Positions 5,991 to 53,528 of a stretch of 64,000 nucleotides of DNA are shown in pieces. Within the stretch, counting starts at the first letter, position 1, and the number at the start of each line of letters is the position of its first letter. The notes below the pieces were generated by a model that saw only the letters and a program-made list of their open reading frames with translations, was not told the origin of the DNA and did no database searches. The position numbers were made by a program, and so were the translations under genes. The DNA is from Bolinopsis microptera (taxonomy: Eukaryota; Ctenophora; Tentaculata; Lobata; Bolinopsidae), in NCBI RefSeq assembly GCF_026151205.1, contig NC_087077.1:12746983-12810982 (forward strand). The letters are read 5' to 3'.

Positions 5991-7199
5991 CTTGTCATAC
6001 GTTGTATGACCCGCCGCGCACGAGTGCGCGGCTCCCCCTGTATCGTAGAAACTCTACAGTGACAAGTGAAGCGACAAAATGTAGTATTCAAATGCAAAAT
6101 GTAGTATTCATGATTCATGATTCATGAATACCAATTACAAACAACAAATTACGTCTTCGCGATTTCTTAGAAAGTACAACCACCCAGAAAGTATCGACCA
6201 ATCAAGAATTACGGGATAGAAATATACTTTACTTTATTATTTATGATTTATGTACTTGTAGGTTTGGCAGGGTAAATACTTGATTGACGATGTCAACCCT
6301 TCCAAATCGTTGCTCTGCGAATTAACAGAGCGACAACAGACAATCTCGTACCATGGATTCTGGACAAGGGGTCGTTCACATATTGTGTAATCATTTTTTG
6401 GAACATTTTTACCCCCCCCCCCCCCCCCCCCCCCCCCTCTGTAATCAGTTTCACACATAGCTATTGTGTCAAAATTACACTAGCGTAATCATTCTAGGTA
6501 GTGCGCCATCGACAGTGAGCCGCGCGCGCCGACTGTAGGATGGTTTTTTAGCGCTAATTTCGGCCAGCACAACTTTCTTCAAACAAATAGATATTAAGTA
6601 TCTTTCCCGACCTTCAATTGCAACAAAAATTGGCAAGCTTACTCATAGACTTACAAGGAAAGTGTCCGAAAAATTTAAAGCATATCCAACCATCAGACAT
6701 TATGTTACAGCTAAAAGCAGTGTATTTTGCCCCATTTTGATCACTATATCAACTCCGATATCAACCAAATTTTTCGGACAGTTGTAAAAGCCTTATTAGA
6801 AGGTCGTCGCCAATTTCCAGAATGATCTTATTTAAGGAACTGAAGATAAATCCAAATAATACGACAAAAATGGTCGAATTTGGACGAATTTGGTAAAATT
6901 ACGCGACTTTTACAGCTACTTTTGCTCCAAAAGCCGCGCACCATCAAATATGGCACCTAGGCTAAACTCACTGATCTTTCCAAAAAAGGTATGACAAATT
7001 TGGTATTGTGAAAATTCTCACAGTCTCTAGAAAACATGGTGGTACAAAAATTTTCAAAATCCGAGCAAGTTTATTTTTATCGTGCACCCCCTAATCATTC
7101 GGTAAACCCCCCCTCAGCTGATTATGTAATATGTGAACGACCCCCAACAGTGAAGTTGAACAGTGAACAGTATCAAGGGCGTTTTTTCCGAGCGTGCTA

Positions 7200-7330
7200 A
7201 ATCATTCTACACTCGATCTTCGCGATTTTTCTAAAATGTAAAAGGTTTTTTTGAAACCAACATCCAAACATAATCGATGTATTTTGAATTTTCAGACGCT
7301 GATTCCGAATCACCCCCCCCCCCATTAGTA
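7200..7330. repeat. Dispersed repeat family with GATTCGGAATCAGCG end
   Basis: The segment runs from a GAGCGTGCTAAATCA-like end through GCGATTTTTCTAAAA to CGCTGATTCCGAATCACCCCCC. Related copies lie at 18770-18885, 20703-20850 (inverse) and 21478-21525 (partial, inverse). Non-coding, MITE-like. Confidence 0.6.
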
Positions 7331-7349
7331 ATAACCATACGATATTAGA

Positions 7350-7652
7350 TTGACCATTGTTAATGATCTGGCCCGGCGCGCGCTTATACTTTGTAGCACT
7401 TGCCATCGGGCAACATTTTGAAGAGAAAGTTGACGGATGTTACTCGTCTAAATTTCTTCGAAGTAGCGCGCGCCGCTTTCGACGGCAAGTGCTACGAAGT
7501 TGGAAGTAGCGCGCGCCGGGCCATGGATCATTAACAATGGTCAAGGAGAAAGCGGCGCGCGCGCTACTTCGAAGAGATTTAGACGAGTAAGTGTTACGAC
7601 GGCAAGTGTTACGAAGTAGCGCGCGCCGGGCCAGATCATTAACAATGGTCAA
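7350..7652. mobile_element. GC-rich MITE with TGACCATTGTTAATGATC inverted ends
   Basis: The ends TGACCATTGTTAATGATC and GATCATTAACAATGGTCA are inverted repeats flanked by AGAT on both sides, a possible 4-bp target duplication. The interior alternates AT-rich and GC-rich blocks (AGTAGCGCGCGCCG, GGCAAGTGCTACGAAGT). Partial copies lie at 7777-7895, 21808-21950 and 21955-22068. No coding capacity. Confidence 0.65.
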
Positions 7653-8084
7653 GATAATCACATTTGTAATAAATAAAACCTCTCTGTACTAATCTTAACT
7701 GGCCTACCTGAATAACCAAACCTTTTCTTTTCCTCGGCCTCAACAATCAAACAGAGTTGTTCATATCGTATTTGGTTTTGACCATTGGTAATGATCAGGC
7801 CCGGCGCGCGCTACTTCGTAGCACTTGCCATCGAGAAGAAAGCGGCGCGCGCTACTTCGAAGAAATTTAGACGAGTAACATCCGTCAAATTTGGTTGTAT
7901 CATGTTGCGACTTAACGGGTGATACTCGTAAATTATTTGTTCCATATATTTGACCGTCGACGCGCGTCCTGGTAGGTTATAAACCTACAAGTTGCGACCC
8001 CCACGGTCGTTTCACTATGACGATATGGGGGGAGCCGCGCACTCGTGCGCGGCGGGTCACACAACGTATGACAAGTATTTGGTG

Positions 8085-14023: not shown

Positions 14024-15000
14024 CTAAAATTCTTCAGTACTAGCTATGATAAAACGTTTAATAGTATCCAGTTCTTCTCTCTTGTTAATTGTAGGGTTCA
14101 GATTAATAATAAACATCGCTTCAAAAATCTTTCTTCTGACAGTATTGGGTTCAATTCTTAAAATATCTACTTCTAAACTGGGATTTAACCCCTCATGACA
14201 GCTCGAATAATGTATGGCAAAAGCTTGACTAACATTAGAAGGGGTAGCAGGGTAAGTAGCGTAACGTAAGTGTTCTCCTACGCGAGCATGTACTTTCCTA
14301 CTGCTTTCTCCAACGTACAGCTGGTCACATAATTTACACTTAATCTTATATACAACATTCTTCACTTCACAATCTTTATTACAAACTATCAAAGGACAAA
14401 TTTTACATGAATTAATACTGCACACACGTTTATCATACGGTCTGTTACTACATAAAATATTTCTCAATTTCGAAGTAGGTTTAAAGTTTACTTTAATAGG
14501 TAAATTGTTCTGCTTTACATAATTTCTAATCTTATTGCTAGTACTGTCCGAAATAAAATCTAAATTAAGAACTGTCCTGGAATCATCCTCGACACTCTGA
14601 CGCCTGTTAGAATTACTACTGTTACAATAACGTCTTGGGTTCTGGTAACCGTTTTTCTGTAATAGATCATCAAGGAGTCTGAGAGAGTGCTCCTTTTCCG
14701 CTGGACCAGATGAGATACGGCAAGCCTCGCTATATAGGTTCTTCACTGTATTAATCTTAACAGACTCAGGATGGCAAGAGTTGTTGTGCAGGGTAATATC
14801 CTTTTGTTGCGGCTTGCGGTACAATCTGCTGGTTAATTTACCGTTTGGCTCGATCCGGACCTCAGTGTTCAGGAAGGGGATAAAATCGTCCTGTTGTTCT
14901 GGAAAGTCGACCTCCCACTTCAACTTTTTGTCCGGATCTTGGTCTGCAATCTGTTTTTTTTTATTAATATTCTCCAGTTCAGCAAAGAATTTCCATTAGG
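14024..15000 (-). pseudogene. Penelope-like element, 5'-truncated (RT C-terminus plus GIY-YIG endonuclease)
   Basis: The reading frame (299 residues from 14923, open further upstream to about 15000) begins in the last part of the reverse transcriptase (FLNTEVRIEPNGKLTSRLYR, then NNSCHPESVK). A Cys-rich linker follows (C158, C168, C173, C176, C181, C185) and then a GIY-YIG nuclease domain from about residue 190: VVYKIKCKLCDQLYVGESSR with YVG at 203-205, the Arg region 210-214, Glu268 and Asn276. This order is diagnostic of Penelope-like retroelements. The RT fingers, palm and catalytic aspartates are missing upstream, where unrelated repeat sequence begins, so the copy is not autonomous. The remaining frame has no stop, so it may be fairly recent. 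Confidence 0.9.
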
Positions 15001-24909: not shown

Positions 24910-25495
24910 CAAACAAGAAAACAACAATTTCAAGAAAACAACAATTTTATTTAGTATCATATACCTTTTACAAAGATACGTCGAGAAGAATCCAGGGTGA
25001 TACAGGATCGGAGAGTGCAGACCATAAAGTTTAGGCACCCACCTTTGCCTCCTGAGTTCTTGGTTGGATAGAAATTTATGCAAACTTGGTCGTTTATACT
25101 CCAAGTCCCTTTGTTGAAAGAAGTAATATTAACTATGTCTAGAGTTAGCTTCGTTCAATAATAACAATATCAATATAATCAATATCAATATAAATATCAG
25201 ATAAAACTACCGAATAAATTATTAAATATCAATTAATTCGTTCCGATAAAATTTTTTATAAATTTAGATATTCAGTATCTAAAAACATTACAACAAATGG
25301 TTAAAAGCGCCCAAAATCGATTTGAGAGATTTTCTGTCTATAGTACAATCATGATAGTAATAGTAAGTGTGTGCTGCTGCAATTAGACTTGATTACTGCA
25401 ATTTAAAATTGTTTGGAGTCCAAGTATCTTTTAAGTCAGCTGCCTGTGCTTGTATTAATAGTGCTTTGGTTCTCAATTTTATCAATTTAATGGAC
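24910..25495. other. Non-coding region, probable LINE tails
   Basis: 24920-24945 contains AAGAAAACAACAATTTC repeats, also present near 57590. The remaining sequence is AT-rich and without a recognised gene. The left part may be the 3'UTR of the plus-strand LINE fragment. Confidence 0.4.
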
Positions 25496-25497
25496 GT

Positions 25498-28185
25498 TTA
25501 TAAGCAGTTGCTTGAAGTTAAAATTTTTGTATGAACAGCGTTCCAAAGCTTGGCTGCATTAAACAAAAAGGTATTTAATTTATTTAGAAGAATAACCGTT
25601 AGACTCGTTGCACGGTTTGAAATGTTGATAGCCTCATAAAGGGAGTATGGGCAGTGGTACTTGATAATCTTAGAGAATTCTAAAATGCAGTGATATTTGT
25701 ACAAGTTTTGAGCCATAAGAATTTTTAATCTATTAAAAATAGGTTTTGTATGCTCCTTTTCAAAGTGTTTATGGTCTAATTTTTGCATACCGTATGGTCT
25801 AGTACGTGCACATGTTGATTGTTTATCTAAAGTAGCAGGAACCCGTATAACCCTAAAATAGTGTCAAGACTCAAGAGACTAAATAATTATTACCTATTTA
25901 ATTCGCGTTTTTGACACCACTTGGGGGTTCAAATTTTGGGCTCTAAAACTCCTATTCCTTGGCCAATTTTTTATTTTTTCATGCTGATTTAGAGGCCATT
26001 AAAGCATTTGACCCAGTCAAAAAAGTATCAGTTGTATATCTTTTACTGTTTTTGCGGAAAGTCGCGTTAAAGTTGATGCCGTGGTGTCAGTAAAATGGTA
26101 TGGATAAAAACATCCATATATATCGTCTCGCTTTATATATAGTAAGATATGAGTCAAGGTCGCCAAAAAGGATCCTTATACAGTGCTTCTGTGTGATAAA
26201 AAGACTATCATTGGACCGTTCTTTGAGGACAACACCCCAAACACTTATACCATAACTGAGATGTGATTCAAAAAGAGCATTATATTTTCAAATATAGTTC
26301 AGAAGGTATCGAGTGCCGAATTCTGCAGATTGCACCAGTCATAGATTGCAGTTTTTTACGGATGTAGTGCATGTGGGCAATCCAGTTTAGCTTACTATCT
26401 ATAACAACACCTAAGAATTTGGTATCCTTGACTTTAGTAATAACCTTATCATTGATGAATATTGATCTAGATTCATCTAGCAGGATAGCAAATGGTCTGG
26501 TCCGTGCACAGGTGTCATCATATTCAGAGGCAGGTTTAAAATGTATGTAGCAGCATTTGGATTGTTGATATGAAGTAGATTACATTTCATGTAAATCGAG
26601 ACATGTTTAAGTACTAAGTTGGCTTTTTTGTATGTTGCTTCTCTAGATGGTCCTGATATGAAGATATTAGTGTCATCAGCATAAAGTGCAAATTTCACCT
26701 CACTGTCTGAAAAGCAGTTTACTATATCGTTCATATACAATAGGAAGAGTAACGGCCCTAGAATTGACCCTTGTGGTACTCCAAATTTCACGTCCATTGT
26801 TTCTGATGGTACATCGTTATACATAACATACTGCGTTCTGTTAGTCAAATAGCTTTTAAGTAAGGTAAGTGCTGTGCCCCTAATACCGTAGGAATTTAAT
26901 TTGCATAAAAGAATATTGTGATCAAGGGTGTCGAAGGCTTTGCTCAAGTCAATGAATATCCCTAGGACATGTTTATTGCTTGCCAGAGACTTAGTAACGG
27001 AGTCTATAGATTTGTGTAGAGCATGAGTGGTAGAATGGCCTTTTCTAAATCCAAACTGTGAGTCTGTTAGTACACCTTTAGATGTGAAGAAATTATAGAG
27101 GCGTTTATAAATGACCTTCTCGAAGATCTTTCCAAATAAAGGTAATATTGATACAGGCCGATAATTTTCAATGTATTTCTTATTCTCTTTCTTGTAAATA
27201 GGAATAACTTTACCAGTTTTAAAAATGCTTGGGAATGTACCACTTTGTATACATGTGCTGTAAAGCCTAGCCAAGGTACCAGCAATGAGCTTTGCCGATT
27301 TTTTAACAACAACTATAGGTATGTCACTCGCCTTGCTATTTTGAAAATCTCTGATCACCTCGATAATCTCTTCTTCATTAGTTTCTTCCAGGTATATGGA
27401 GTCAGATTCCGAATTAGACATAAAGTGAGCAAATGATTCTATTGGTTCCAGAGAAATACTATTGTTTGACAGTACATTTTTATTGAGATTACTTGCAAGA
27501 GATGTAAAATATTCACAAAATTTGTTAGCAATTATTCGTCTGCAAGTAACTCTCTGGCCATCTATGACAAAATCGTCCTTACATCTAGACAAATTTTTGC
27601 CACGGAGTTCATTTATAACTTCCCAAGTCTTTTTTGCTGTACTTCTCGAATTTTTGAGTATAGCACATAGCCTTTGCCATCTTTATTGAGCTCTTGAGGA
27701 ACTTGTCGAATTCCTTGTAGTAGATGTGCTTGTTTGGATCCCCGCCAGGTAGTTTTAATGTACAAGTCTTCTTCCATTCGAAATACAACCTAGCTTTCTT
27801 GTCGATGGAGTTAATGAGGCCCTGGGTGATCCAAGGGTTGGTTATGCTGTTACGTTTAGTGGTTCTAGGAGTTAGAAGTTTGCAAGACAAATCTATCTTT
27901 TCTTGAAATAACTGCACGAAAAAGTCAAATGTGTTACAGCTGTGGTGGAACCTATCTATATCGTTTTCTATTTCAAGACAGAGCTTCTCTAAGTTAGCAT
28001 TACTAATTACTATAGTCCTAGTGTATAGTAATTTTGTCTGATGAATCAGGTGTTGGCACAGAGTCAGGGGAAAGTTCAGTAAGAGTGAATATATGGTGAT
28101 GGTGGGAGATCTTGTCAGATATCACACCAGAAATAAGGGATTGATCTACGACATCACACGAACGGAAACTGCTGCTTAATATCTT
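25498..28185 (-). pseudogene. CR1-like non-LTR retrotransposon ORF2, decayed
   Basis: On the minus strand the order is: endonuclease C-terminus (up to about 28185, with SDKISHHHHIF), linker (27609-27917, NPWITQGLINSI), reverse transcriptase (26477-27592) and C-terminal domain (26150-26480 and 25498-25830). RT motifs are GIFIDLSKAFDTLDH, FGVPQGSILGPLLFLLYMND and LYADDTNIFIS. A frameshift near 26550 moves the frame after LLHIN; the shifted frame continues with the conserved CARTRP segment. Stops also separate the linker from the RT. A family-A repeat (25834-26149) interrupts the C-terminal domain. It is related to the element at 44-50 kb but older. Endonuclease N-terminus and ORF1 are missing (5' truncation). 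Confidence 0.85.
25834..26149 (+). mobile_element. Repeat family A, copy 2, inserted in the CR1-like ORF
   Basis: It begins AGCAGGAACCCGTATAACCC and ends CGTCTCGCTTTATATATAGTAAGA. The CR1 protein frame can be followed on both sides (FGDLDS before, KQSTCARTRP after), so this is an insertion, apparently at a TA. Confidence 0.8.
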
Positions 28186-34503: not shown

Positions 34504-36144
34504 TTAGTCTGCGTCATCTGCGTCATTACTTTGTATTATACAACTTCGGCGGGTAATATTTCTCCATCCTTTTCGATCTGCAGCCAATCTTCTCATACAA
34601 TCAATCGTGAGTCCATTACGATCCAATCTCTGCTCAGCATCTTCAATAAATACATCATTTAAGCTCTTCCTAGGCCTGCCTCTTGATCGTTTCCCATGTT
34701 TGGGTTTCCATTCAAGTAGATAGTTAGGTAACCGATCTTCAGGCATTCTACTGACATGTCCAAACCAACGTAGCCGTTTTGTTGCTATTATGTCAATGAG
34801 AGCAGTTATTGAAGCCCTTCTTAAAACATCTTCATTTCTTACTCGATGGAACCACCTCACTCTCAGGATCCTGCGTAAGCAGTACTGATGGAAAGACTCT
34901 AATCTTCTTGTCTGCACTTGAGTCGTGTTCCATATCTCACTTCCATAGGTCAGAATGGTAAGAACAGCTGCGATGTAGATTCGCACTTTGTTGTTAATGC
35001 TTATGTTCTTATTCTTCCAAATGTTATTGAGTTGGTTAAAAGCTCCGGTTGCTTTTCCAATCCTGACACTTATTTCTTTATCGATCTTGCCATCCGATGT
35101 AATTTTGGCACCCAAATAAGTGAATTGAGTGACCTGCTTTGCAGAGTTTCCATTGACAGTAATATCTATGGTCCTATTCTCTGGGAGTGGGTGCTGCGAC
35201 GTATCTTTCCCAATTACCATGATCTCTGTTTTCTTTGCGTTCATCTTTAAACCCCCAAGCCCACAGTATTTCGCAATATTGTCCGTTGTTTCTTGCAGTC
35301 CCTCGACAGTGTCATCCATGCCTGCTATGTCATCAGCATAGTCCAAATCAATGACACATTTTTCCGGTTGTCTGGAACTTTGTCTGTACTGAAGAGTAAA
35401 ACCACGCGATATATTTTTAAACTTCTCGGCAAGTTCTAATCCCCAGTTAAGTACAAGGTTGAAAATGGGGGGCCCTTGCACATCACCTTGTCCAGTCCCC
35501 GAATCGACATCAAACCATCTTGTCAATTCCCCATTGACACGAACTGCACTTTCAGTTGCTCTAAAGAACGCTTTGAAAACATTGATGTATTTTGTTGGAA
35601 GACCATAATGTTCAAAAGCTTTCCAAATAAAGTCACGATTGATTGAATCAAAAGCAGCTTTAAAATCAATAAAGTTTATATACAAAGGGACGTTGAATTC
35701 TATACAATTGTGTATTATACAATGAAGGGAGTATAGCTGATCTATACAAGAACGGTTTCTCCTGAAACCACACTGATTTTCTCTAAGTAACTTTTCAAGC
35801 CCATTACTTAGTCTTTTTAACAACACGATTTGAAATAACTTCGATACGGTGGAGCGTAGAGTTATCCCTCTGTTGTTGTTGCAATATGTGAGGTCCCCTT
35901 TCTTTGGGATGATGGTGATGATTCCTTTCCTCCAATCACTAGGAATATCCTCACTTTTCCATACAGTTTCAAACAAATCTTTTAACCAAGGCAGAAGTCC
36001 AGGAGAACCGTACTTTAACTGCTCATTTGAAATTTCATCAATTCCAGCACTTTTGTAGTTCTTCAACTTCTTGATAGCTTCCTCAATTTCAAACAAGGAC
36101 GGTGGCTCATCATCATTACTAAGATATTCATTCTTATTAATCAT
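34504..36144 (-). CDS. RTE-like non-LTR retrotransposon reverse transcriptase, endonuclease missing
   Basis: An uninterrupted frame of 546 residues. RT motifs: IIPKKGDLTYCNNNRGITL (about residue 78), CGFRRNRSCIDQLYSLHCI (125), INFIDFKAAFDSINRDF with the first catalytic Asp at 160, GTGQGDVQGPPIFNLVLNWG (216) and DLDYADDIAGMDDT with YADD at 269-272. The C-terminus has the usual thumb (TYGSEIWNTTQ), KRLRWFGHVSRMPEDRLPNY and RGRPRKSLND. The endonuclease is absent: upstream sequence after 36144 is unrelated, so the copy is 5'-truncated. The full open frame suggests a young insertion. Probably not a host gene. Confidence 0.88.
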   Translation of the reverse strand: MINKNEYLSNDDEPPSLFEIEEAIKKLKNYKSAGIDEISNEQLKYGSPGLLPWLKDLFETVWKSEDIPSDWRKGIITIIPKKGDLTYCNNNRGITLRSTVSKLFQIVLLKRLSNGLEKLLRENQCGFRRNRSCIDQLYSLHCIIHNCIEFNVPLYINFIDFKAAFDSINRDFIWKAFEHYGLPTKYINVFKAFFRATESAVRVNGELTRWFDVDSGTGQGDVQGPPIFNLVLNWGLELAEKFKNISRGFTLQYRQSSRQPEKCVIDLDYADDIAGMDDTVEGLQETTDNIAKYCGLGGLKMNAKKTEIMVIGKDTSQHPLPENRTIDITVNGNSAKQVTQFTYLGAKITSDGKIDKEISVRIGKATGAFNQLNNIWKNKNISINNKVRIYIAAVLTILTYGSEIWNTTQVQTRRLESFHQYCLRRILRVRWFHRVRNEDVLRRASITALIDIIATKRLRWFGHVSRMPEDRLPNYLLEWKPKHGKRSRGRPRKSLNDVFIEDAEQRLDRNGLTIDCMRRLAADRKGWRNITRRSCIIQSNDADDAD

Positions 36145-40609: not shown

Positions 40610-43600
40610 CTTAAGGCGGGTAGTATTCCCGAGATCCATTGACAACAGTTCTCCACAGCTTTCTGTCCTCCATCAGTCTAGCTATCTCATCTACTGACTT
40701 CAGCCCAGTATCTGCTTTTAGGTTATCTAGTAGTGTTAAGTGAGGTCGCCCCCTGTTAGTATGCCCATGACTCGGCTTCCAGAGGATCAGTTTGTTCAGT
40801 GTCAGCTCCGGATGTCGGTGAGCATGACCTGCAAGTCTGAGCCTTCGTTGGGTTTTCTTGGAGCTGACTTTGGGAAGATCACCGTGGTTGCTGACATGGT
40901 CTTGCTGACATGGTCTCGATATTGATTGATGTTAAGGGCCATTCTTAACATTCGCGTATAGCAACCATCAACCATCTTTGCTAGCCTTTTCGTCATAGTC
41001 CAAGTCTCGGAACCGTACAGTAGCACCGACTCCACTAGTGCTGTAAACACTCTGATCTTGATAGACTTTCTAAGCTTAGAATTCCAAAGTTTTTTAGTAT
41101 GTGGCATGCTCCCCATGCTCTTCCTTTCCTAACCCTGATATCACTCTCACTGTCTCTGATTCTAGAACCCAGATAAGTGAAGTTTTCCACATGCTCTATT
41201 GTACTGTTACCCAGGGACTTGATGGTATCAGGGTTCACGATGTTCTGAGTAATGAATTTGGTTTTCCCTTCATTCATTCTAAGTCCAACTGTAGCAGGAA
41301 CCCTTTCTACCTCTAGCATCAGCGTCTCTGCCTCCTTTACAGTATCTGCTATCAGAGCAATGTCATCTGCAAAACCAGTGTCTGATATCTTCTCCGCCTT
41401 AACTCTCCTACTCCTATAAGGCTTAATGGTAAATCCTATTTCAGGGTGCTTGTTTAAGGCTTGTCTCATACAATAGTCAAGGGCTATAATGAACAAGTAT
41501 GGTGCTAACGTATCCCCTTGAAGAACTCCTGCCAGGATATCAAATAGCTCGGTATCCCCATCAGGTGTAATAACTTTGCCCTTCGTGTTTACATAGAGTA
41601 GATTAATGATATCCACAATACTGTCTGGTATCCCATATGCCTTTAGTATTTGCATCAAAATTCCCCGGTGAAGTGAATCAAAGGCCTTCTTAAAATCAAC
41701 AAACACCATAGCTGCCGGTAGATTTCTCTGTCTAGCCCCCTCTAGTTTCCTTCTGAGTGCCAAGATATGACTAGTAGTGGACCGTCCTTCCCGAAAACCA
41801 TTCTGAGTGTCCCTAAGTACCCCTTCTATAGCCGGCTGGATCCTATTAAGCACCATTCTATTGAGAGTCTTAGCTACAAGTGAAGTCAAAGATATCCCCC
41901 TCCAGTTTCCAGGGTTTGTCAAGTCTCCCTTTTTGGGGACCGGAATGATGTTGCTTATCCTCCACTGATCTGGCGCAATACCATCTGTCAGGGCTTTGTT
42001 GCAGAAGGACAACACGATTTCATCCAGGTCGCATCTTTTGAGGACTTCAGGTGGTATACCGTCATCACCTGGTGCTTTACCTTCTTTAATCCTGAGTTTA
42101 GCAGCTTTGAGCTCCTCTAGGGTAAAAGGTTCTGTACTGATGTTGAGTCCTTCAAATTGAGTCTCGATGCTAGGATGTTCGTTTTCCACATTAGGTGTAC
42201 TCCCTAACAGATTCGTGAAATGCCTAAGCCAATTTTCCTTCCTCTCTTCGGCTCCGTTGCCCCTTATTTGAGTTGCCCCCTTGGTCTTCCTACTAGTAAT
42301 CTCATTTATGACATTCCAACTTTCTTTATTTTTACATCTGTCTGCAGCCATTTCGACCCTTCTAACCTTGGCAACTAGATCTTCTTCAAAGATGTCCTGG
42401 TACACCTGATTCAATTCAGTTTTTAGTAGCTTAACAGATAGTCGACTGTCTTCACTAGGATCCCGGTGATAGACAGTCTCTGCTTGCTGCAACGCTGTAC
42501 GCACGTTTTGAACTCGCTGATCACCCGCGAAATCGTCACGTCTCTTCTTTTCTCTCTTAGGCAGTATGGCTTTGTTGGTATCAGCAATCGCATCAACAAA
42601 ATGCCCATACAGTTCCGTAACCTCACTTTCATCGGTTTGCTCGCATAAAGCAGAGTACCGATTCTTGACTTCTACTGCATATCTCTTCTGTTGGTCTTCA
42701 TCCGATTTTAGTGCTCCCCAATTATACCAGGTTTTCTTGGGTTGCTTTTTTGCTCGTCGAAGAGATAGCTTGATCTTAGACAAAACAAATCTATGATCAG
42801 TACCCAGTGTACTAAAGAAACTTTAGACTTCAGTGTCTTTGATACTGTTCCTCCACTTCTTCCTCACTAGAATAAAGTCTATCTGAGACTTATTCAGGGT
42901 TCCATCCGATAGGTGAGTCCATATCTTACCCCGCTTCTTTCTGAACCTGGTGTTTGTAATCTCCAGATTACATTCCAGGGCAGTATCCCGAAGCAGCTCC
43001 CCATTTCTGTTGGTTCTCTCATGAAAATACCAATCACAGTCATTCTCGTCCCTCTTTGATAGGTGAGCGTTAAAATCCCCAATCACCTCCAAGAAGTTGT
43101 GAGCAGGGATCTGTGAGACTGCACACCTTAGATCGTTATGAAACTTTTCTGCTGCTTCTACACTATCTGCCTCCGTAGGTCCATAGACACAGACGAAGGT
43201 TGGTTTAGGATTTCCATTGAGAGATATCTTAAAGATTCTCTCCGTCACTGGTGTTATCTCCGTAGTTGCATCAAATGCCTTGCTTGTTAGGATGAATCCC
43301 ACTCCACCCACTGCTGCCTGGGCCCTATTCCTAGTAGCTGATGAAGTAATTAGATAGCTGCTCTTGCCAACTCTCTCTACTCTGACAGGCTCTTCATGAA
43401 CTATCCTGTGCTCTTGGATACCTACAATCTCTGCGCCACTCTTCTCGAAAATATGTACCATCTCCAGTTTCCTTTGGGTAGTTCTTATCGTTCTAGTGTT
43501 AAGAGTGCCTACCCAGGTAATGTCGGTACATGAAAATAAACTTTTTTTGTTGTTTTCGTTTATGCTGTTGGGTGTTTCAGGTTGATTAGGCTCATCATTC

Positions 43601-43659
43601 ACCAACCTTCCATTCGGATTTAAGTTGGTGAAATCATTACCACCTTCACGTCCAGACAC
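40610..43659 (-). pseudogene. RTE-like non-LTR retrotransposon, nearly complete (endonuclease plus RT)
   Basis: The endonuclease part (42823-43659, 278 residues) has GTLNTRTIRTTQRKLEM, EIVGIQEHRI, VIGDFNAHLSKRDEND and LNKSQIDFILVRKKWRN, the APE-type fold of RTE/CFDP2-like elements. A single in-frame TAA after KDTEV separates it from the RT part (41035-42783). RT motifs are MVFVDFKKAFDSLHRG, GVLQGDTLAPYLFIIALDY and DTGFADDIALIADT. A frameshift near 41100 passes the frame to 40802-41116 (LLYGSETWTMTKRLAKM), and the typical end RGRPHLTLLDNLKADTGL runs on to about 40610. The tail is a TGACTTGACTTGACTTA repeat. Two lesions only, so moderately young, not functional as it stands. Confidence 0.88.
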
Positions 43660-43664
43660 AAAAG

Positions 43665-43860
43665 TAATAAAACAAATATTTAATAAAACAAATATTTATT
43701 TTTACGGCACAATCAAACAATATTAATAATAAATATATCAGGGGAGGTTTGAAGAGGTTTCAAGTGCCGAAGGCCACTGCTTATCTTTAGGATTTGAGAG
43801 TGACCTGTGCTTGAAACCCCCTCAACCATCCACTACGTCAATATACTTGTTATATAAACT
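43665..43860. other. Spacer between the RTE-like and CR1-like elements
   Basis: It includes an AACAAATATTTAATAAAAC direct repeat and a segment with GAGGTTTGAAG / CTTGAAACCCCCTC inverted ends (43742-43830). The 3'UTR of the CR1-like element begins near its right edge. Confidence 0.4.
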
Positions 43861-44052
43861 ATATAGAAAAATATAACAATCTAAAATTACTTATTGGTTT
43901 AGTTTGGTGACATAGGAGAGCCCAGTTGAGTTTTAGTTTAGGTTTAAGTTTTAAGTTATAGTTTAAAAGGTTAGCCATGTTTCATGGCAGAGAGAGATAT
44001 CATGTGTGCAGAGCCGTACCGGATTTAGAATTTGAGATATAATATAAATTAG

Positions 44053-46560
44053 TTACCATGTATTAGGGTCATCTCGATTTTGGAGGGATAGCAAGTGCTT
44101 TTTAAGGTTAGATTTAATAATACCTGACGAGGCTGACAAGTCTGAATTCTTGGAAGAACCCGGGATTATTATCCCATCTACATTAGCATCACATATTTCG
44201 AATACATAGGGGCTGAGGTCATTCCAAATTTTCGTAGAGGTGTACAAAAAGTTCTGTTGGGAGATATCCAACCTCAGTAATGGGACAATCAGACGAAGTT
44301 TTTCATTTCTAGGACAGAACTTGAAAAGATCTTTAATCGACTGGGGGACATCAAATTTAAGAATTTTGAATAGTTCCATAAATGTATGGTACATGTGCAG
44401 ATTCTCCAGGTTCATAATTTTCTGCTCAGTGAATAGCGGTTTAGTGTGTTCAAGACAGTAGTTCTTGCTAGCCATATGTTCGTTATAAGTTCTTGAACGT
44501 GCACAGGTTAAATAGTATTCCTTATGATCAAAATTGGGAATGTTACCAAATAGCAGTCTTATACATCGTTTTTGAATTGCAAAGATTTTATTCAGCTTAT
44601 GTTTAGGGATCCCACCCCAGCAACTTATACAATAGCTAAGATGTGACATAAAAAGAGCATTGTATAGTTTCAAATATTCAGATTTGGGAATGAATTTGCA
44701 AATTCTCTTAATCGATACAATACTGGAGTTCAGCTTTAAGGATAAATGATTAAGATGTGGTTCCCAGCTTAGCTGTTCGTCTATTATCACCCCAAGAAAC
44801 TTTGTACATTGAACTTTTTCTAGCTTTTTGCCATCTATTAAAATCGTTAGATTCCTGTTAAAGGGCCGTGTTCTGGCACAGGTCTGTGTTGCTCTTGACA
44901 AACCTGGCTGAAAATGCATGTAACAACTTTTCCCTGCATTTATATGTAACTTGTTAGACTCCATATAGTTACTGACCTGTTTCATTACATGATTAGCTTT
45001 TTCAAAAGCTTCCTGTGCTGAACTACCTATCACAAAAATATTTGTATCATCAGCAAACAGGACGAATTCAGCCAAGCTTGAGGAGCTCACAATATCATTT
45101 ATATAAATCAGAAATAGTAGAGGTCCTAACACTGACCCCTGGGGTACACCATACTCAACTGAACACTTGTCCGATTTTTCAGTTTGAAAAGAAGTTACTT
45201 GGCTACGGTTTGTTAGATAGCTAGCAAGAGTTTTTAGTGCAATACCTCTTACTCCATAGTGTTCAAGTTTATGCAGGAGTTTATCGTGCTCAATTGTGTC
45301 AAATGCTTTACTTAGATCAATAAATATTCCAATTACATGATTTTTCTGTTCAATCTCATTAAGTATATTATTGACAGAATAGTTTACGGCATGAGATGTT
45401 GAGTGTTGTTTTCTAAAACCAAATTGTCGATCATAAATCACGTTCATAGCACTGAGGTAATTATATATAACCTATTATAAATTATTTTTTCAAGTATTTT
45501 TCCAAATATCGGTAATGTAGAAACAGGTCTATAGTTATCAAGGCATCGTGAGTCTCCTTTTTTATAAATTGGTGTAATAGAGCCCGTTTTAAGCTTGTTT
45601 GGAAAGACCCCATTGTCCAAGAACCAATTAAAGAATCTAGAGATATGACCAGACAGATAATTTACACTCTTTTTTAAGACTTTAACAGAGATATCACTTG
45701 CCTTCCCATTTTCAAGGCTACCAATAATTTTACTTATCTCTTCCTCGTCACAGGGGCTGAGAAAAAAAGAGTTCACTATTCTTTCTCTGCCCTTGAGGTA
45801 TTGCTTAAACTTCGTTTTATTGAAATTGCCATCAGTTACCGTACGAGATGGTACAGAAGATTGAACTTTTGAATTAAGAGTACGAGCAATAGACGAGAAG
45901 TAGATGTTAAATCCGTTAGCAATCTCACGGCGTTCAGTTACAATTCTACCATCAATTAAGAATGATGCTTTTATATCTTTTTTAGATTTACCCCTGAGTT
46001 CGTTAATCAATTCCCAGGTTTTTTAAATATTTCCTTTAGCAAGTTCAAATTTTTTCCCATAGTGGGCTTTTTTCGCAGATTTTATAGCTTTGTTTAGGAT
46101 AGAACGATACTCCTTATACTTAAGATATAAAGTTTCCTCACCTAATGGGTTGATTTTTGTACACGAAGCCTTCCATCGCTTGTAGTGAAAGCCTTTAGTA
46201 AACACAGATTTAATTAACGCAGAAGTGATCCATGGATTCATCAATCTATTGCGTTTTGATTGAAAACCAGCAGTAGAGTCCACTTTGAAATTCAGTTCGA
46301 TTTTTTCATGGACAGTTTCGACAAATTTTTCAAAACCTTCCTCATCATACGAAAAGTTCGATTGGTAGATATCCCTTCCGATATCATTAAGGAAGCTTTC
46401 TATATTAGACTCACAGTAATCATACTTAGGTTTAAGTTTGGCATCATTTGGACTCTCTTTAGTATTACACGATATGAAACAGAAGATGGGGTTATGATGG
46501 GAAATCTTGGATTCAAGAATTCCAGATCCTAAGACACGCTCAGTAGAGTTCACTAAAATA
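44053..46560 (-). pseudogene. CR1-like ORF2, part B: end of endonuclease, reverse transcriptase, C-terminal domain
   Basis: It continues the frame of part A after the 770-bp insertion: endonuclease end with SKISHHNPIFCF, linker with NRLMNPWITSALIKS, RT motifs GSITPIYKKGDSRCLDNYRP, VIGIFIDLSKAFDTIEH, YGVPQGSVLGPLLFLIYIND and FVLFADDTNIFVIG (FADD catalytic box), then FLGVIIDEQLSWEPHL, CISCWGGIPKHKLNKIF and a C-terminus ending RDDPNTW. Two lesions: an in-frame TAA at 46023-46025 and a 2-bp slip in a TATATA run near 45460 that shifts the frame between the N- and C-terminal RT parts. Everything else is open, so inactivation is recent. Confidence 0.92.
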
Positions 46561-47330
46561 CAGGGTGGGCCAAAAGTCAGTACCCATACGTTGGCCTTAA
46601 TAGCTCCGCTGTGTTTTATATTTGAGAGCTGTTGCTTTGCAGATGGCATACTGTACTTACTGGTTCGAGGATTCCGTCGTCAAAATTTGAAAATTCGAAT
46701 ATTTTAGACCACGCCCATTCAATATTAAAACACCTTTATTGTTTTCTCTGAACATGCTGAACGCCTAATTTTTTCAGAGACGGTAGATAATCAAATGTTG
46801 CATATGATCTGAAAACATGAGGCAAAACGGATTAGAAATGACGAAGTTATCAAGCATTTTCTGTATCTCGTTAACAAAATTGACTGGGTGATTATGTGAC
46901 ACCGTGACACGACACCTTAATTGGGTACCCTTAACAATTCTCATATAATGTTTAACGGGGTAGTTAACGGGGGTCACCTTATCACGTGATTAGGTAAACC
47001 AATCACCTGATCACACGTAATGAATAAACTCGTTATGCTTCATATCTCGGTCATCTGAGAAGCTACAGTTCTAATTCTTTCAGGACAAACGTAATTGGAA
47101 TGGCCAAACACAATTCAATAACATTTAGCTTGATCTGACTATCCAAACTATCAAATAAATGTGAAAATGAACCTCTATTTGAAAAAAATGAACGCGAATA
47201 TTTTTCGAGTTGACAAATTCCTCGAACCAGTGGTGGTACTAAGTCATACCAGAAAGAAGTATTTAAATTGGGCACTCAGTGACTGAGCTATAAAGGCCAA
47301 CGCATGGGTACTGACTTTTGGCCCACCCTG
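46561..47330. mobile_element. 770-bp TA-flanked DNA element (Tc1/mariner-type ends) inside CR1 ORF2
   Basis: The ends CAGGGTGGGCCAAAAGTCAG and the inverse (CTGACTTTTGGCCCACCCTG) extend over about 35 bp and are flanked by TA on both sides. A TA duplication and CAGGGTG-type ends fit Tc1/mariner. The interior has two short minus-strand ORFs (67 and 70 aa) without a DDE motif that I can recognise, so it is non-autonomous. Confidence 0.9.
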
Positions 47331-48258
47331 TATTATCAATTAAGCTTTCGTTGCAACCCGGCTTGGCATGGGTGGCAATCGATATCAAAGGGATTAAATT
47401 GTTACTGTAGATAGTTTGTTCAAATTCGGCTATGTTTCGTCCCTGGGCCAAAAGATCAACATTGAAGTCACCTGTCAAGGCTACATTATTAGACGGTAGG
47501 AATTTCATCAACACATCAAGCTCAGCAAGTGCATCTAGAATATCACCACTAGGGGGCCTGTAAACAACACCAGCAATCTGTGGAACCTCTGTGTTAGTGA
47601 TCTCAACAAAAAGTGTTTCAAGATTGTCAGAGCATTTACATAACTTTTCGATTCGGCTGTATTGGTAGTTATTGTCAATATATACACCAAGGCCACTACC
47701 TTTCTTTTTCCCATCAGTTTTGGAGTTGTACTCACTGCTGTAACCATCAATTTTGTATAGATCTTTATTTTCCTCATCAATGTTTGTTTCAGCTAGCGCA
47801 ATAACTGCAAATTTCTCATCATATTGACTCATATCAGTAATAAAGCTGTCAAAGTTAGATGCGTTCCCATCAATGTTGTTAAACACAATAGATATGAACG
47901 GCTTGTTATGGTTAAGTATGTTTTTTGACAGCCGGTTGAAATTTGTCATGTTATAAGACCTACAGTCTTTTAGAATGTTTGAAATAGTCTCCATATCTTC
48001 GTCTCTTTCTACAGTGTTGGGATCATATTTGTCATAAATAATTGAGTTGAAAGGATTGTACCTTTGGGATTTGAAGGCGAAACATTGACTGCAGTGCCAC
48101 ATTTGTTTAACATGGTCAAATTTAAAGCTCTGTTCAGAACATTTGGCATGATATATTGTATCGCAACACTCACATATTATGACTTTATGATGGCTTAGTA
48201 CATTGCTATCACAACCTGGACATCTCTCTCTTGTAATATTAAAGTTTATTGAGGTCAT
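47331..48258 (-). pseudogene. CR1-like ORF2, part A: PHD finger plus APE-type endonuclease
   Basis: ORF2 begins with ATG at 48258, sharing ATGA with the ORF1 stop. Residues 13-59 form a PHD finger in Cys4-His-Cys3 order: C13, C16, C29, C32, H37, C40, C56, C59, with Trp54 before the last pair. The endonuclease follows: FISIVFNNIDGNASNFDSFI, VIALAETNID, VVYRPPSGD and VALTGDFNVDLL. At 47331 the frame enters the TA-flanked insertion and ends 23 codons later at an artificial stop. Across the insertion the protein continues in part B. PHD fingers commonly read histone H3 tails, so a role in chromatin targeting is a reasonable inference. Confidence 0.92.
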
Positions 48259-49670
48259 ATCGGTAAGATATCACCCCTACTACCCCTACTTAGGGCACTC
48301 CTATAGTCACCATTTCCACCTTTAAATCTTTCCGTGGACTGACTTCCACCACGTTGTACAATACATCGTTTTATATTCATGCAAAATATTTTCAGGCCTT
48401 CTCTTCCGAGATGTACAACATCATTGACCAATGGTGTTCCATCACGTGAGAATCTACCATACTTAGAAGGCATGCATCCGTTAACAGAACCTAGTACAGA
48501 GTTATCTATAATAAACATGTTTTTCCTATTATAAACCATGTCAACAATCAAACTGTTTAACTCCCCTATACGTGAGTTAACAAACTGTGATTTAGTGGGC
48601 AAGAGTAGACTAATATGAACTTTACTATTAGGATAAAATTGCTGAATTTCACTACATTTCTTCTTAAGCTTAGCAATAAGTGTTCTAGTAGATGGTCTGT
48701 TGTTATTGTCCCGAATATCATTGATTCCCGTGTGTATAACAATGTTCCGATAAGGGCCTATGTCTTTCGGAGAAGGAATATCATCAATTTTAGCAGCCCA
48801 CATTCGCTTACCAGGAACCCATTTTCCGAGAGTTCCAACATCTTTACCAAATTGAATGTATTTAGTGTTTGAGTCCCCAATTAAAACTGTGCTATTTTTG
48901 TAGTAAGGCGCAATATGCCTAAAGGTAAAGCTGTACCTCACAGAATTTGTCTCATCAGATTCCTCTTCATCTTCTTCATTAGCGAGGGGTTCAATACCAT
49001 GATTCCAGATTTCTTGGGACAACCTGGACATCACGTACACACTTCCATCTTTGAGCTTTAAGGACTTTTCAGTCGACTTATGCGTGAACTTTATTGTGCG
49101 TTCTTTACCAAGAGACACAGTGACTATTATTGATTCAGGGTCAATAAGTACCTCATTGTCACAGTGCTGAGGGATATGGCTACTGTTGCCTGTATATCTT
49201 GTTACAAGGCAAGAGTTCAGCCAGCTCTTCCTATTGGGGAGAGAGGGACGCACACAGTCCAAAAGATCTTGTATTTCTACTAGTACTGGAGTTTCCTTTG
49301 CCTGATGATATGCTCCTGTATACCAGTATCCATGTTCACCAAAGTAGATGACATCCCTGCTGCCACCAACCGAAGAAAAATCTGCACTACTGTCCTCCAG
49401 CAGCTTTATAAGTTTGCTGTGAAGCTCAACAGGCACTATATCTTCCTGATAAGTTATATAAGGGTCACATGCAGGGTCTATAGAAATTTGAGATGCAGTA
49501 AAGGCTGATACCCTAGTGCTGTAAGAACTATTCATCATGTTTCTTTTCTGTTGGCTATGTGACACGTGAGCCACCTGCGCCACTGGAATGGCTCTCTTGA
49601 TAGCTACTTCATCAGTAGATGTTCCCACATACAGTAAATAAAACGGTAAGATGACAGATGGTGCTCCCAT
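48255..49670 (-). CDS. CR1-like ORF1: AlkB-type dioxygenase fused to SGNH esterase
   Basis: An intact frame of 471 residues. Residues about 75-255 are an AlkB-like 2-oxoglutarate/Fe(II) dioxygenase: YTGNSSHIPQHCDNE with the iron ligands H169 and D171, IIVTVSLGKERTIKF, LKLKDGSVYVMS, WNHGI with the third ligand H224, and RYSFTFR giving the R245-x5-R251 pair expected to bind 2-oxoglutarate. Residues about 260-440 are an SGNH hydrolase: TVLIGDSN with the nucleophile S267, HTGINDIR with N317, and DVVHLG with D417 and H420. The tail (440-471) is basic and glycine-rich, a possible RNA-binding part. AlkB enzymes repair alkylated DNA or RNA; SGNH esterases are known in CR1-group ORF1 proteins. All catalytic residues are present. 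ORF2 starts inside the stop codon (ATGA), suggesting termination-reinitiation. Confidence 0.93.
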   Translation of the reverse strand: MGAPSVILPFYLLYVGTSTDEVAIKRAIPVAQVAHVSHSQQKRNMMNSSYSTRVSAFTASQISIDPACDPYITYQEDIVPVELHSKLIKLLEDSSADFSSVGGSRDVIYFGEHGYWYTGAYHQAKETPVLVEIQDLLDCVRPSLPNRKSWLNSCLVTRYTGNSSHIPQHCDNEVLIDPESIIVTVSLGKERTIKFTHKSTEKSLKLKDGSVYVMSRLSQEIWNHGIEPLANEEDEEESDETNSVRYSFTFRHIAPYYKNSTVLIGDSNTKYIQFGKDVGTLGKWVPGKRMWAAKIDDIPSPKDIGPYRNIVIHTGINDIRDNNNRPSTRTLIAKLKKKCSEIQQFYPNSKVHISLLLPTKSQFVNSRIGELNSLIVDMVYNRKNMFIIDNSVLGSVNGCMPSKYGRFSRDGTPLVNDVVHLGREGLKIFCMNIKRCIVQRGGSQSTERFKGGNGDYRSALSRGSRGDILPI

Positions 49671-49990: not shown

Positions 49991-50319
49991 TTCACTGATA
50001 AAAGCGAGTACCGATTGAATTTGATATTGCAACATCTTCCTTCTTAAGGATACTTTTCACTGGCTCATGTTCATTCCTCTTTGGGAGAAGTTCCATAGAT
50101 TCGTCTATGTGAAAATTGTCCAAAATTTCGAATTTCAAATTAAATCGGCACATGCGTCTGTTTAAAAAGGGCGTGGTCGCCTAAAAACTCGTTATAGAGC
50201 AAAAACATCAACGGGAATCGATTTCTCGTGCAAAAATACATAGATTTAGCCATCAAACTTGTAAAAATTGACGAAAATTACGATTTTCAATAGTTTCCGA
50301 TTACGAGCAAATATTAAAG

Positions 50320-51590
50320 GATGAGGGGACCTTAGAAAAAGTTTTTTTCTCGTGCAAATCCTTTTATTACATTATTCGTATAAACCACTTTAGTGAAATC
50401 CGCAAAGTTGTATTTCATTCGCGCGCCGAGATATCCAGCCAAAACAATTTGAACCTGTGACGTCAATTATGTGAGTTGCTCTGATCCGCGCATATAGAAA
50501 TACAGGTAAAATGAGCGTGCGGGCCGACTAAATTACTAATTAAGAATAAATTAACAATTTACGATACTAACGAGCCTATAACCAATGGAGAAGAGACTTT
50601 TTATGACCGGTTGAAAAAAGAATTATCACCCTACGATAACCATGAGCCGAGATACACCTGGAATAAGATTGAAGTCACACAGAAAGGCATGTAAATTATG
50701 TATATTTATAGCTCCCAACGTAACACCTAGCAACTCCCTGTTTCGTACCACAGTTGATATATCAACATGTCATATCAACACAACACGGTCCTAATAAAAG
50801 TGGATCGGGTAGGTATGAAATGCATGTCTTCATTCCAGTTGGACAAGCACCAAGCACCAAGCTTTTAAGTTCTAACTCACTATGTGACACTACTTATAAC
50901 GTAAGCAAGATTTGCAACTATTACACCAAGCAATATTATACCAAGCATAGCAGACGAACACATCCACCTTCGTTACGCTTTACACTCAAGTCACAGCAAA
51001 CTAAAACGGTAAATTATAAATGAGTGTACAACTAAAGGCAGGTACACGCGCAGTGTCAAACCGCACGTGCGTACTCAGATAGGACTAGAGGCGCCAAGGG
51101 CCAGCTAGTAAAATGTCTTCTACTACAACATACATTCTTTTTAATTGTGTCCATATCGGGTTTCAAACAAGTCAAAACAAAATAGCAGTTTGTGGTTTGG
51201 TTAGCGGATACTACTTATCTTAGCTATTTATAAATAGAAATACCTACTACAACTACATAACAAGAAAGTCTTTCTGAGTTACATTTAACTATTATTATTA
51301 AAGAGAATTATTCGTAACTTAGACTAATTCAGTGCAACCAAAGATACCGCTCTCGCAAACGCCAAAGGTAACAAGACGTAATTAAAACAGAACGTGCGCG
51401 CGCACGTTGGTCTTAACACATAAGTGACGTCACAGCCCAAAATTGCTATCAGCCAATAGGAGCGCGGCGTGATATTGCACGAATTATCGATTTCACAGTC
51501 CGGCGTATTTTTTGATTCTACACACTTTCACAGGACTTAAACGCGAATATTTGGAAGTAAATTCTAAGGTCCCCTCATCCTTTAAAAAAG
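50320..51590. mobile_element. 1.27-kb DNA element with AGGATGAGGGGACC ends and TTAA duplication
   Basis: The left end AGGATGAGGGGACCTTAGAA and the inverse right end TTCTAAGGTCCCCTCATCCT are each bordered by TTAA. The uninterrupted relative at 39835-39850 has a single TTAA in the corresponding place (inverse orientation, CCTTTTTTAATATTTG). The interior (GC-rich 51030-51110, AT-rich rest) shows no transposase. TTAA duplication suggests mobilisation by a piggyBac-type enzyme. Confidence 0.85.
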
Positions 51591-52223: not shown

Positions 52224-53528
52224 ATGATTACCCTAAAACGTATCCAAGGCAAGCTAGATCAGTACACCGGTCCTACAGAAAGTGCTTACAAGAGAGGTAG
52301 AAGTTGTGGCGATATAGTTTGGTCTCAACGTATGCTAACCTCAGTGGTACTTAGAAAGCATTGGAGCTACCACAGAATGAGTATAGACATGTCAAGTGCC
52401 TTTGACACCATCAGCAGAGAAACAGGACTCAATGTTCTTGAAGATGCTGGCTGTACTAGTGATGAAATTAGGATGGTACGGCTCCTACTATCAAACACAG
52501 TGTTGAAAGTAAAAGTCAATAATACTGTATCAATTGAGTTCCAAAGCACAACTGGAGCATTTCAAGGAGATGCACTATCAGGTAATCTATTTACTGTTGT
52601 TGAAGCCGCTGCACTTATTCACCTCAGATCTGTACTCTCCCAAGTATCATCAACACCTTACCCAGTGAATCATCCAATCCCTAATCCTCCTATCTCAGAA
52701 GAATTCATGCCACTCGAAACAGGATACTCTGATGATATTGACTTTAATAACACTGAACTTGCTCCACTCAAAGAAATGCTTCCTATCGCTAAAGATATAT
52801 TCCAGCAGTGGGACCTTCATATCAATTCTTCCAAGACTGAATTTGTCCATTTTTATTTAGCAGATCCTAAACCCACTGTTAAACGCAAGGTGATTGTTGG
52901 AAAAGTGTATAGAGGTGATGAAGAGTGGCGCTCTAACAAAACTTTAGGATCGTTGATGTGCACTGTTAAGGATATCAAGAATCGAATATTCCTTGGTAAT
53001 GTTGCCTTTAGTAAATTTCAGAAAGTTTGGATGAAGAGCAAGATTTCAGTCCAAAGGAAGATCAAAATCTACGAGGCACAAGTAGTCTCTATTCTACTCT
53101 ACAACTGCAACTCCTGGGCTGCACCACTAGCTTCGTTGAATGAACTTGATATTGCTCATCGCAAACACCTCCGAAGAATCCTCAACATCAGATGGCCTAC
53201 TGGGGTTATTTCTAATGAGGCACTCTATGCCCGTTGTTATGTCACTCCCTTGTCTGTGAGAGTCTCTAAGTTTCGATGGAGAATGTTAGGACATATCTTA
53301 AGAGGACAGGAAGACTCACCAGCATACACCTCTATGTTATTTGCTATAAATTCTGATATTTTTATGGAAGGGAGACGGGGTAGACCATGTTTAAACTTAT
53401 TAGATGTTATTAGAAAAGACTTGACTAGTAGAAATCTTGATATTAGACTTAAGAATTTGACTGATTTCGAAGACCTCAGATTTTTAGCTTTAGATAGGGA
53501 GGAGTGGAAGAAGTTAGAAGATGGTTGA
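52224..53528 (+). CDS. Divergent non-LTR-type reverse transcriptase, N-terminus missing
   Basis: An open frame of 434 residues. RT motifs: YKRGRSCGDIVWSQRML (about residue 23), HRMSIDMSSAFDTISRET with the first Asp at 54, STTGAFQGDALSGNLFTVV, and LETGYSDDIDF, a YSDD active box instead of the common YADD/FADD. The C-terminus has LLYNCNSWAAPLASLNELD, RKHLRRILNIRWPTG, SKFRWRMLGHIL and GRRGRPCLNLLD, as in RTE/CFDP2-like elements. RT block 1 and any endonuclease are absent upstream. No stops. Related proteins are, as far as I recall, common in cnidarian genomes. Probably a retroelement remnant, not a host gene. Confidence 0.82.
   Translation: MITLKRIQGKLDQYTGPTESAYKRGRSCGDIVWSQRMLTSVVLRKHWSYHRMSIDMSSAFDTISRETGLNVLEDAGCTSDEIRMVRLLLSNTVLKVKVNNTVSIEFQSTTGAFQGDALSGNLFTVVEAAALIHLRSVLSQVSSTPYPVNHPIPNPPISEEFMPLETGYSDDIDFNNTELAPLKEMLPIAKDIFQQWDLHINSSKTEFVHFYLADPKPTVKRKVIVGKVYRGDEEWRSNKTLGSLMCTVKDIKNRIFLGNVAFSKFQKVWMKSKISVQRKIKIYEAQVVSILLYNCNSWAAPLASLNELDIAHRKHLRRILNIRWPTGVISNEALYARCYVTPLSVRVSKFRWRMLGHILRGQEDSPAYTSMLFAINSDIFMEGRRGRPCLNLLDVIRKDLTSRNLDIRLKNLTDFEDLRFLALDREEWKKLEDG

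Follow-up and report, generated by a model that had tools for sequence, protein, structure and literature searches.

A 471-codon open reading frame (ORF) in the genome of Bolinopsis microptera joins an AlkB-type dioxygenase to an SGNH esterase and is most of the first ORF (ORF1) of a putatively CR1/L2-like long interspersed nuclear element (LINE). This LINE, a retrotransposon lacking long terminal repeats (LTRs), probably belongs, by its motifs, to the Jockey superfamily. The ORF lies on the minus strand (48255..49670) of the 64,000-nucleotide stretch that was analyzed (assembly GCF_026151205.1, contig NC_087077.1, positions 12,746,983 to 12,810,982; hereafter, the window). It matched the Pfam profile 2OG-FeII_Oxy_2 at 1e-19 (residues 113-251), with the SGNH esterase behind and a weak match to Lipase_GDSL_2 (0.025), and had no match in NCBIfam. 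A sequence-only reading had proposed this fusion from short motifs; the significant AlkB match upholds it, and every AlkB and SGNH motif residue that it named is present in the ORF. Judging from sequence, we give about even chances to the reading that a LINE ORF1 that combines an ALKBH2/3-like dioxygenase and an SGNH esterase with a PHD-like zinc finger and a coiled coil uses its dioxygenase to keep the element's template readable.

The element was traced through the window's own genome (264,652,675 bases in 232 contigs), where a search with ORF1 yielded 919 first-look candidates and 90 scored matches; the 20 best-scoring copies of the window subfamily were taken. Seven of these (L036, L040, L041, L044, L046, L047 and L049) start matching copy L039 at position 849-850 and L032 does so at 867; the remaining copies begin at scattered points further in, that is, with variable 5' truncation. 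The 3' end near L039 position 8080 is reached by 18 of the 20 copies, L039 included, the other two being L049 and L051. The full element was taken as the probable unit spanning L039 850-8080, ~7.23 kb, with a 5' untranslated region (UTR) of ~1.24 kb, an ORF1 of 721-722 amino acids (aa), an ORF2 of 1143 aa and a 3' UTR of ~0.4 kb that terminates in a ~16-nt tandem repeat. ORF2 begins within the stop codon of ORF1 (ATGA), a 4-nt overlap also present in genomic copies. ORF1 carries, in this order, a PHD-like zinc finger, a coiled coil, AlkB and SGNH, and ORF2 a PHD-like finger, an APE endonuclease and a reverse transcriptase. Both ORFs are complete and open in 7 of the 20 copies (L036 and L039-L044). 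In Pfam, the intact ORF1 matched AlkB (9.2e-19) and PHD (1.2e-4, which fails the Pfam cut-off), Lipase_GDSL_2 not being among its matches at E 0.01; the intact ORF2 matched RVT_1 (3.6e-39), Exo_endo_phos (2.3e-4) and PHD (0.001), the latter two failing the cut-offs, and the GDFN and SHH motifs of its endonuclease are present by eye. Genome-wide, 17 of the 44 ORF2 matches listed span the full 1-1143 with no stop; all 17 stand directly behind an ORF1 match, which spans residues 51-54 to 471 in 13 cases and otherwise begins at 107, 161 or 238 or is split in two. Some of 12 copies examined have short target-site duplication candidates (for example, 9 nt in L040, 7 nt in L042 and 7 nt in L043), with none convincing in the others.

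The truncated window copy, taken alone, would fit a host gene or a chance fusion beside a transposon. The ORF1-ORF2 overlap recurs in dispersed copies, however, and in two further families of the genome (L052 and L053) related ORF1s precede related ORF2s, 52% identical in L052 and, over the part compared, 39% in L053. This recurring pairing contradicts a host gene or chance fusion, the probability of which we consider practically negligible.

The active sites of both enzymes are conserved far beyond this subfamily. A search of 5.8 billion proteins found 209 relatives at E <= 0.001, of which 120, 40-89% identical to the query, were listed and aligned; the ctenophore Mnemiopsis leidyi is the sole organism named among them. 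Counts below 120 reflect gaps. The iron ligands HxD...H are invariant (H169 and D171 in 118/118, H224 in 119/119), as are E173 (118/118) and Tyr159 of the N-x-Y pair (117/117), and the 2-oxoglutarate (2OG)-binding R-x5-R motif is kept as R245 in 119/119 and R251 in 119/120. The SGNH catalytic residues are similarly retained (S267, G287 and N317 in 120/120; D417 and H420 in 118/119), and the transposon-type esterase pair is found as H313 in 115 and S354 in 117 of the 120. Because the matches were found by whole-protein similarity, the architecture common to the relatives owes something to how they were selected, which does not apply to the invariance of single residues. In the genome itself, all 17 copies checked (L032-L048; L049, L050 and L051 stood outside this check) retain ten residues of the catalytic or active sites. 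The residues that the sequence-only reading had taken as catalytic persist in further copies, and at most one of the 118-120 relatives aligned at each position departs from them.

The N-terminal part of ORF1 is more variable. Averaged over the pairs of 54 long forms, identity rises from 25% ahead of the PNTxSPH motif to 49% within AlkB and 52% within SGNH. A PHD-like cysteine pattern is present in 49 of the 120 relatives and in 38 of the 40 with a long N-terminus, and some relatives (P0068, P0102, P0119) have another N-terminus without a PHD match.

LINE ORF1 proteins generally bind RNA, and the AlkB fold might have been kept solely as a nucleic-acid-binding scaffold, without catalysis. One study describes esterase-type ORF1 proteins as lacking structural RNA-binding domains (PMC3905857), a role that AlkB could fill. 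A mere scaffold is nevertheless very unlikely given the invariant iron ligands and R245, the near-invariant R251 and the retention of all of these in the 17 genomic copies checked.

Selection was assessed as the Nei-Gojobori ratio of nonsynonymous to synonymous divergence (dN/dS) between sublineages A (L039-L048) and B (L032-L038), 10 x 7 copies. The ratio was 0.034/0.192 = 0.18 for AlkB, 0.012/0.216 = 0.057 for SGNH and 0.16 over 42 pairs for ORF2; the 31-codon tail of ORF1 has no ratio because no synonymous change occurred there. Between L039 and L036, values of 0.43, 0.13 and 0.035 were obtained for the N-terminus, AlkB and SGNH, respectively. By this measure, both ORF1 enzyme domains are under purifying selection. 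Conserved Fe/2OG ligands together with low dN/dS suggest that the dioxygenase chemistry is needed for the spread of the element, and the conserved active sites in the relatives suggest that these elements profit from repairing or editing the methylation of nucleic acids.

The same comparison showed a synonymous divergence of ~0.2 between the sublineages in AlkB and SGNH and of 0.07 in ORF2. This gap between ORF1 and ORF2 suggests recombination or template switching between the sublineages.

AlphaFold predicted two confident domains, with ALKBH2/3 and GDSL-type esterases as the nearest folds, and the model of the former shows the double-stranded beta-helix of the AlkB family. In the predicted SGNH domain, H313/S354 aligns with H191/S228 of ZfL2-1. 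A model of a full ORF1 (P0002; mean predicted local distance difference test score 70.8, predicted template modelling score 0.50) served solely to establish in which order finger, helices, AlkB and SGNH follow one another.

The predicted fold bears on which methyl group would be removed. The dioxygenase could serve epitranscriptomic evasion, erasing host-written N6-methyladenosine (m6A) or another regulatory mark from the element's RNA, as proposed for the AlkB of an orchid Gypsy element. A retained active site fits any demethylase, and passages of the orchid study report that this LTR-element AlkB demethylates m6A in single-stranded RNA (ssRNA), up to 60% (PMC9289625), a precedent showing that a transposon AlkB can be active. 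The domain studied here is, however, nearer ALKBH2/3 than ALKBH5: it keeps HxD[DN]E, no ALKBH5 chain is among its 33 profile matches at E <= 0.001, and ALKBH5 first appears at rank 46 by Foldseek. This ALKBH2/3-type signature favours repair of 1-methyladenine and 3-methylcytosine over m6A erasure, and we consider evasion through m6A rather unlikely.

We also weighed action on DNA or chromatin, with the PHD finger guiding the ORF1 protein to chromatin and AlkB removing methyl marks or damage from target DNA or integrated copies. PHD-like fingers occur in both ORF1 and ORF2, with the cysteine and histidine columns, the putative zinc ligands, all invariant in 35 aligned long forms, and the folds nearest to the AlkB domain include DNA repair enzymes bound to double-stranded DNA. 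Part of a meeting report describes N6-methyldeoxyadenosine and its demethylase ALKBH1 at young L1 elements in mouse embryonic stem cells (PMC6015446). Against this, the PHD profile is matched weakly, at best with 1.6e-5, conservation is lowest at the N-terminus, and PHD fingers are, in passages of a comparative study, common to many LINEs (PMC4120745). Such a role appears quite unlikely.

Template maintenance, the reading that we favour, would proceed as follows. ORF1 protein would form multimers on the RNA of the element by means of its coiled coil, and the AlkB domain, with Fe(II) and 2-oxoglutarate, would strip methyl groups from the Watson-Crick face (1-methyladenine, 3-methylcytosine) of that RNA and/or of single-stranded cDNA, where these lesions would stop the reverse transcriptase. 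Both 1-methyladenine and 3-methylcytosine block reverse transcriptase, and AlkB treatment is used in tRNA sequencing. The esterase would bind or edit lipid to place the particle, as proposed for ZfL2-1, and a LINE with ORF1 protein-coated RNA would profit from the de-blocked template. The suggestion of the sequence-only reading, that the retrotransposon may carry its own demethylase to repair its template or to remove host methyl marks, is partly supported, namely in the fusion within a LINE ORF1 and in the retained catalytic residues. Several points weigh against template maintenance. Purifying selection shows that there is a function, not which one, and the two sublineages amount to one comparison, although 70 copy pairs enter the mean; moreover, the copies were matched up position by position from the stop codon, with no gaps allowed. 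The presence of a PHD finger in ORF1 would fit a role at chromatin just as well. The Asn of the N-x-Y pair, an accessory rather than defining feature that stabilises 2OG according to passages of the orchid study (PMC9289625), is mostly Thr at residue 157 (T in 81, S in 20, N in 13 and H in 3 of 117 relatives). Finally, ALKBH5 suppresses human L1, as described in part of another study (PMC7873242), and demethylation therefore need not help an element.

The window copy itself derives from the ~7.2-kb element and is 99.2-99.4% identical to copy L032 (blastn). Its features are as follows:

43665..49503, minus strand: 5'-truncated LINE copy, corresponding to L039 positions 3015-8079 (blastn against the 20 genomic copies)
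49504..49670, minus strand: flanking DNA outside the element, providing the first ~56 codons of the listed ORF
48255..49503, minus strand: ORF1 remnant, the C-terminal ~415 codons of the ~722-aa ORF1
48906..49478, minus strand: AlkB-type 2OG-Fe(II) dioxygenase domain, residues ~65-255 (H169, D171, E173, H224, R245, R251)
48351..48899, minus strand: SGNH esterase domain, residues ~258-440 (S267, G287, N317, D417, H420; transposon-type pair H313/S354)
48258..48350, minus strand: C-terminal tail of ORF1 with a QSxxRFxGxxGxYxxA motif (alignment consensus)
48255..48258, minus strand: ATGA, the ORF2 start overlapping the ORF1 stop, as in genomic copies
48082..48222, minus strand: PHD-like zinc finger at the start of ORF2 (Pfam PHD E 0.022, fails the Pfam cut-off)
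47332..47847, minus strand: first part of the APE-type endonuclease of ORF2, interrupted (Pfam Exo_endo_phos 0.0022, fails the Pfam cut-off)
46560..47331, no strand: terminal-inverted-repeat insertion of ~770 bp (50-nt arms, 96% complementary; TA target duplication)
46026..46559, minus strand: end of the ORF2 endonuclease and linker
44056..46010, minus strand: ORF2 reverse transcriptase and C-terminal region (Pfam RVT_1 7.5e-31), with one stop codon and one frameshift
43665..44052, minus strand: 3' UTR, ending in a ~16-nt tandem repeat unit (AAATATTTGTTTTATT-like)

The first ~56 codons of the ORF are assigned to flanking DNA because similarity to the relatives and genomic copies starts at ~49502-49503: tblastn with the closest relative ends at window position 49502 and blastn against the genomic copies at 49503, longer tblastn extensions into 49504..49670 (P0002, P0039) being weak. 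The inverted-repeat insertion, in which no long ORF was seen, is a gap in the alignment to L039. With its 5' truncation, this insertion and the stop and frameshift in ORF2, the window copy is dead; a target-site duplication was sought at both of its ends and none was seen. The 471-codon ORF described earlier, apart from its first ~56 codons, is most of a CR1/L2-like LINE ORF1, in a truncated copy.

Other repeats lie in the same window. Positions 25420-27998 (minus strand) contain another, diverged element of this kind, whose reverse transcriptase reaches 55% identity over its best stretch and for which the window has no ORF1 match. Inverted repeats I2/I3 at 50314-51585 (24 nt at 100% and 29 nt at 83%, ~1.2 and 0.9 kb apart) are perhaps another non-autonomous DNA element. 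Three reverse transcriptase-like frames of different kinds are among 34504-36144 (minus), 41035-43659 (minus), 52224-53528 (plus) and 14024-14923 (minus); the frame at 52224-53528, the sole one of these tested in Pfam, matched RVT_1 at 1.5e-11, and one of the four is, by eye, a Penelope-type GIY-YIG-like frame.

AlkB domains are numerous in this genome. A search with the Pfam AlkB model gave 587 first-look candidates, of which 150 were scored, and 151 reported matches; 149 of the 150 counted rows lack an internal stop, and many lie within frames of recurring lengths (551, 593, 611, 646, 676, 707 and ~750 aa). Some are probably host AlkB genes. The same search also gave matches in 3 of 14 control genomes. 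At six AlkB places, the listed open frames measure 2225-3388 aa.

We examined five more families of the genome (L052-L056). In L052, an ORF1 44% identical to that of the window family is followed by an ORF2 whose PHD part lies in another frame. The L053 ORF1 (68-2119), 28% identical over 683 columns, contains PHD (0.0017), AlkB (2.1e-13) and SGNH (0.0011) and overlaps its ORF2; in the alignment, its esterase has Met/Cys in place of the transposon-type H313/S354 pair, possibly a coupled change. L055 (646 aa) and L056 (551 aa) have AlkB (5.7e-23 and 1.9e-18) followed by an SGNH-like domain (8.3e-6 and 9.1e-4). An Exo_endo_phos frame (2.2e-6) stands behind L056 and, by eye, a similar one behind L055, the sequence examined ending short of any reverse transcriptase. 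L054 (G000:C10:16873500-16877500) shows the reverse order, SGNH (3.1e-6) before AlkB (1e-21), at the start of a giant repeat-rich open frame listed as 3388 aa, part of which was examined; GDVETNPGP just upstream is presumably a 2A-like peptide. In L054-L056, the esterase lacks the H/S pair, judging by eye. As a separate observation, L055, L056 and L057 represent two further LINE-like families with an AlkB+SGNH ORF1 and an endonuclease frame behind, in which SGNH block I seems, by eye, to be SSS and not GDS.

In a tree of 107 AlkB domains, for which about a third of the eligible fused rows plus named ones were taken, all 43 fused rows fell in one group with 10 AlkB-only fragments (Shimodaira-Hasegawa-like approximate likelihood ratio test 94, not starred). 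In a 78-row tree for which 24 fused rows were chosen (roughly one in six, together with named ones) and 10 fragments and 4 long-branch rows were dropped, these 24 made up one side of a branch (99, starred). AlkB and SGNH distances are correlated (Mantel r 0.79, 0 of 1000 permutations as high, n = 107), as expected if both were inherited together. Holding all transposon AlkBs together (28 rows versus 50) was not rejected by the approximately unbiased (AU) test (p-AU 0.589), with low supports; a single origin is neither shown nor rejected by this value, with which single and multiple capture of AlkB are both compatible.

Three scans of viral contigs (A1, A3 and A4; two peptide patterns each) gave 6, 21 and 26 pattern matches and no relatives, which does not prove absence. 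In prokaryotic contigs, 11 loci match the AlkB profile and none of these the SGNH profile; one (L001) is a 199-aa AlkB-like bacterial gene. A partial protein labelled Moritella AlkB (P0263) is 42% identical to the retrotransposon AlkB; it lies outside the AlkB-only rows and therefore also matched the SGNH profile, and is possibly animal DNA in a bacterial bin. Tentatively, and with somewhat less than even confidence, we propose that AlkB+SGNH is a general retrotransposon module, present in several widely diverged LINE-like lineages of this genome, with either domain first and with differing ORF2s, that AlkB is a common enzyme domain of the mobile DNA, and that the module may act in 'template repair', de-blocking methylated RNA or cDNA during target-primed reverse transcription. 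To our knowledge, such a function is known from no described LINE.

The findings bear on the role of ORF1 proteins beyond RNA packaging, as the element has an ORF1 with two enzyme domains. These domains are under purifying selection in a family with several intact, nearly identical copies, which makes repair or editing of methylation on the element's own template a testable hypothesis. Should the enzyme prove to clear lesions at which reverse transcriptase stops, it would also be useful in practice wherever methylated RNA has to be copied.

An AlkB in an orchid LTR element and SGNH esterases in LINEs are already published. The sequence-only reading knew of no described AlkB-bearing CR1 element, and open-access full texts yielded no AlkB-bearing LINE either, although subscription papers and Repbase reports lay outside this search, so that a description may exist. 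Passages on SGNH esterases in LINEs place them in CR1, RTEX and Penelope-like elements of many animal phyla (PMC3905857) or, elsewhere, in vertebrate groups only (PMC4120745); 'AlkB' and 'dioxygenase' occur 0 times in the former text and 'oxygenase' 0 times in the latter. The ctenophore element resembles LINEs with an esterase-type ORF1 (CR1, ZfL2-1; PDB 4c1b) in its SGNH catalytic blocks, the coiled coil before the esterase and the position of ORF1, and shares with ZfL2-1 the transposon-specific pair (H191/S228, here H313/S354). It differs from the CR1 and ZfL2-1 ORF1 in that AlkB sits between the coiled coil and SGNH. Bdelloid LTR and Athena elements with a GDSL esterase ORF3, in the description of which 'AlkB' and 'oxygenase' occur 0 times (PMC5408684), likewise indicate that enzymatic ORFs are common to several retroelement types. 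Compared with cellular ALKBH2 and ALKBH3, to which it is 18-24% identical in the structural alignments shown, the domain is transposon-encoded and fused to SGNH. The Phalaenopsis orchid Ty3/Gypsy element is similar in encoding an AlkB with intact Fe/2OG residues; passages of its description present an ALKBH5-like protein in an additional ORF of an LTR element, called a recent acquisition (PMC9289625). The ctenophore AlkB, by contrast, is carried by a LINE, fused to SGNH and ALKBH2/3-like, with relatives down to 40% identity, and thus adds LINEs to the RNA viruses and the plant LTR element in which AlkB occurs, tying it there to lipid-type esterases.
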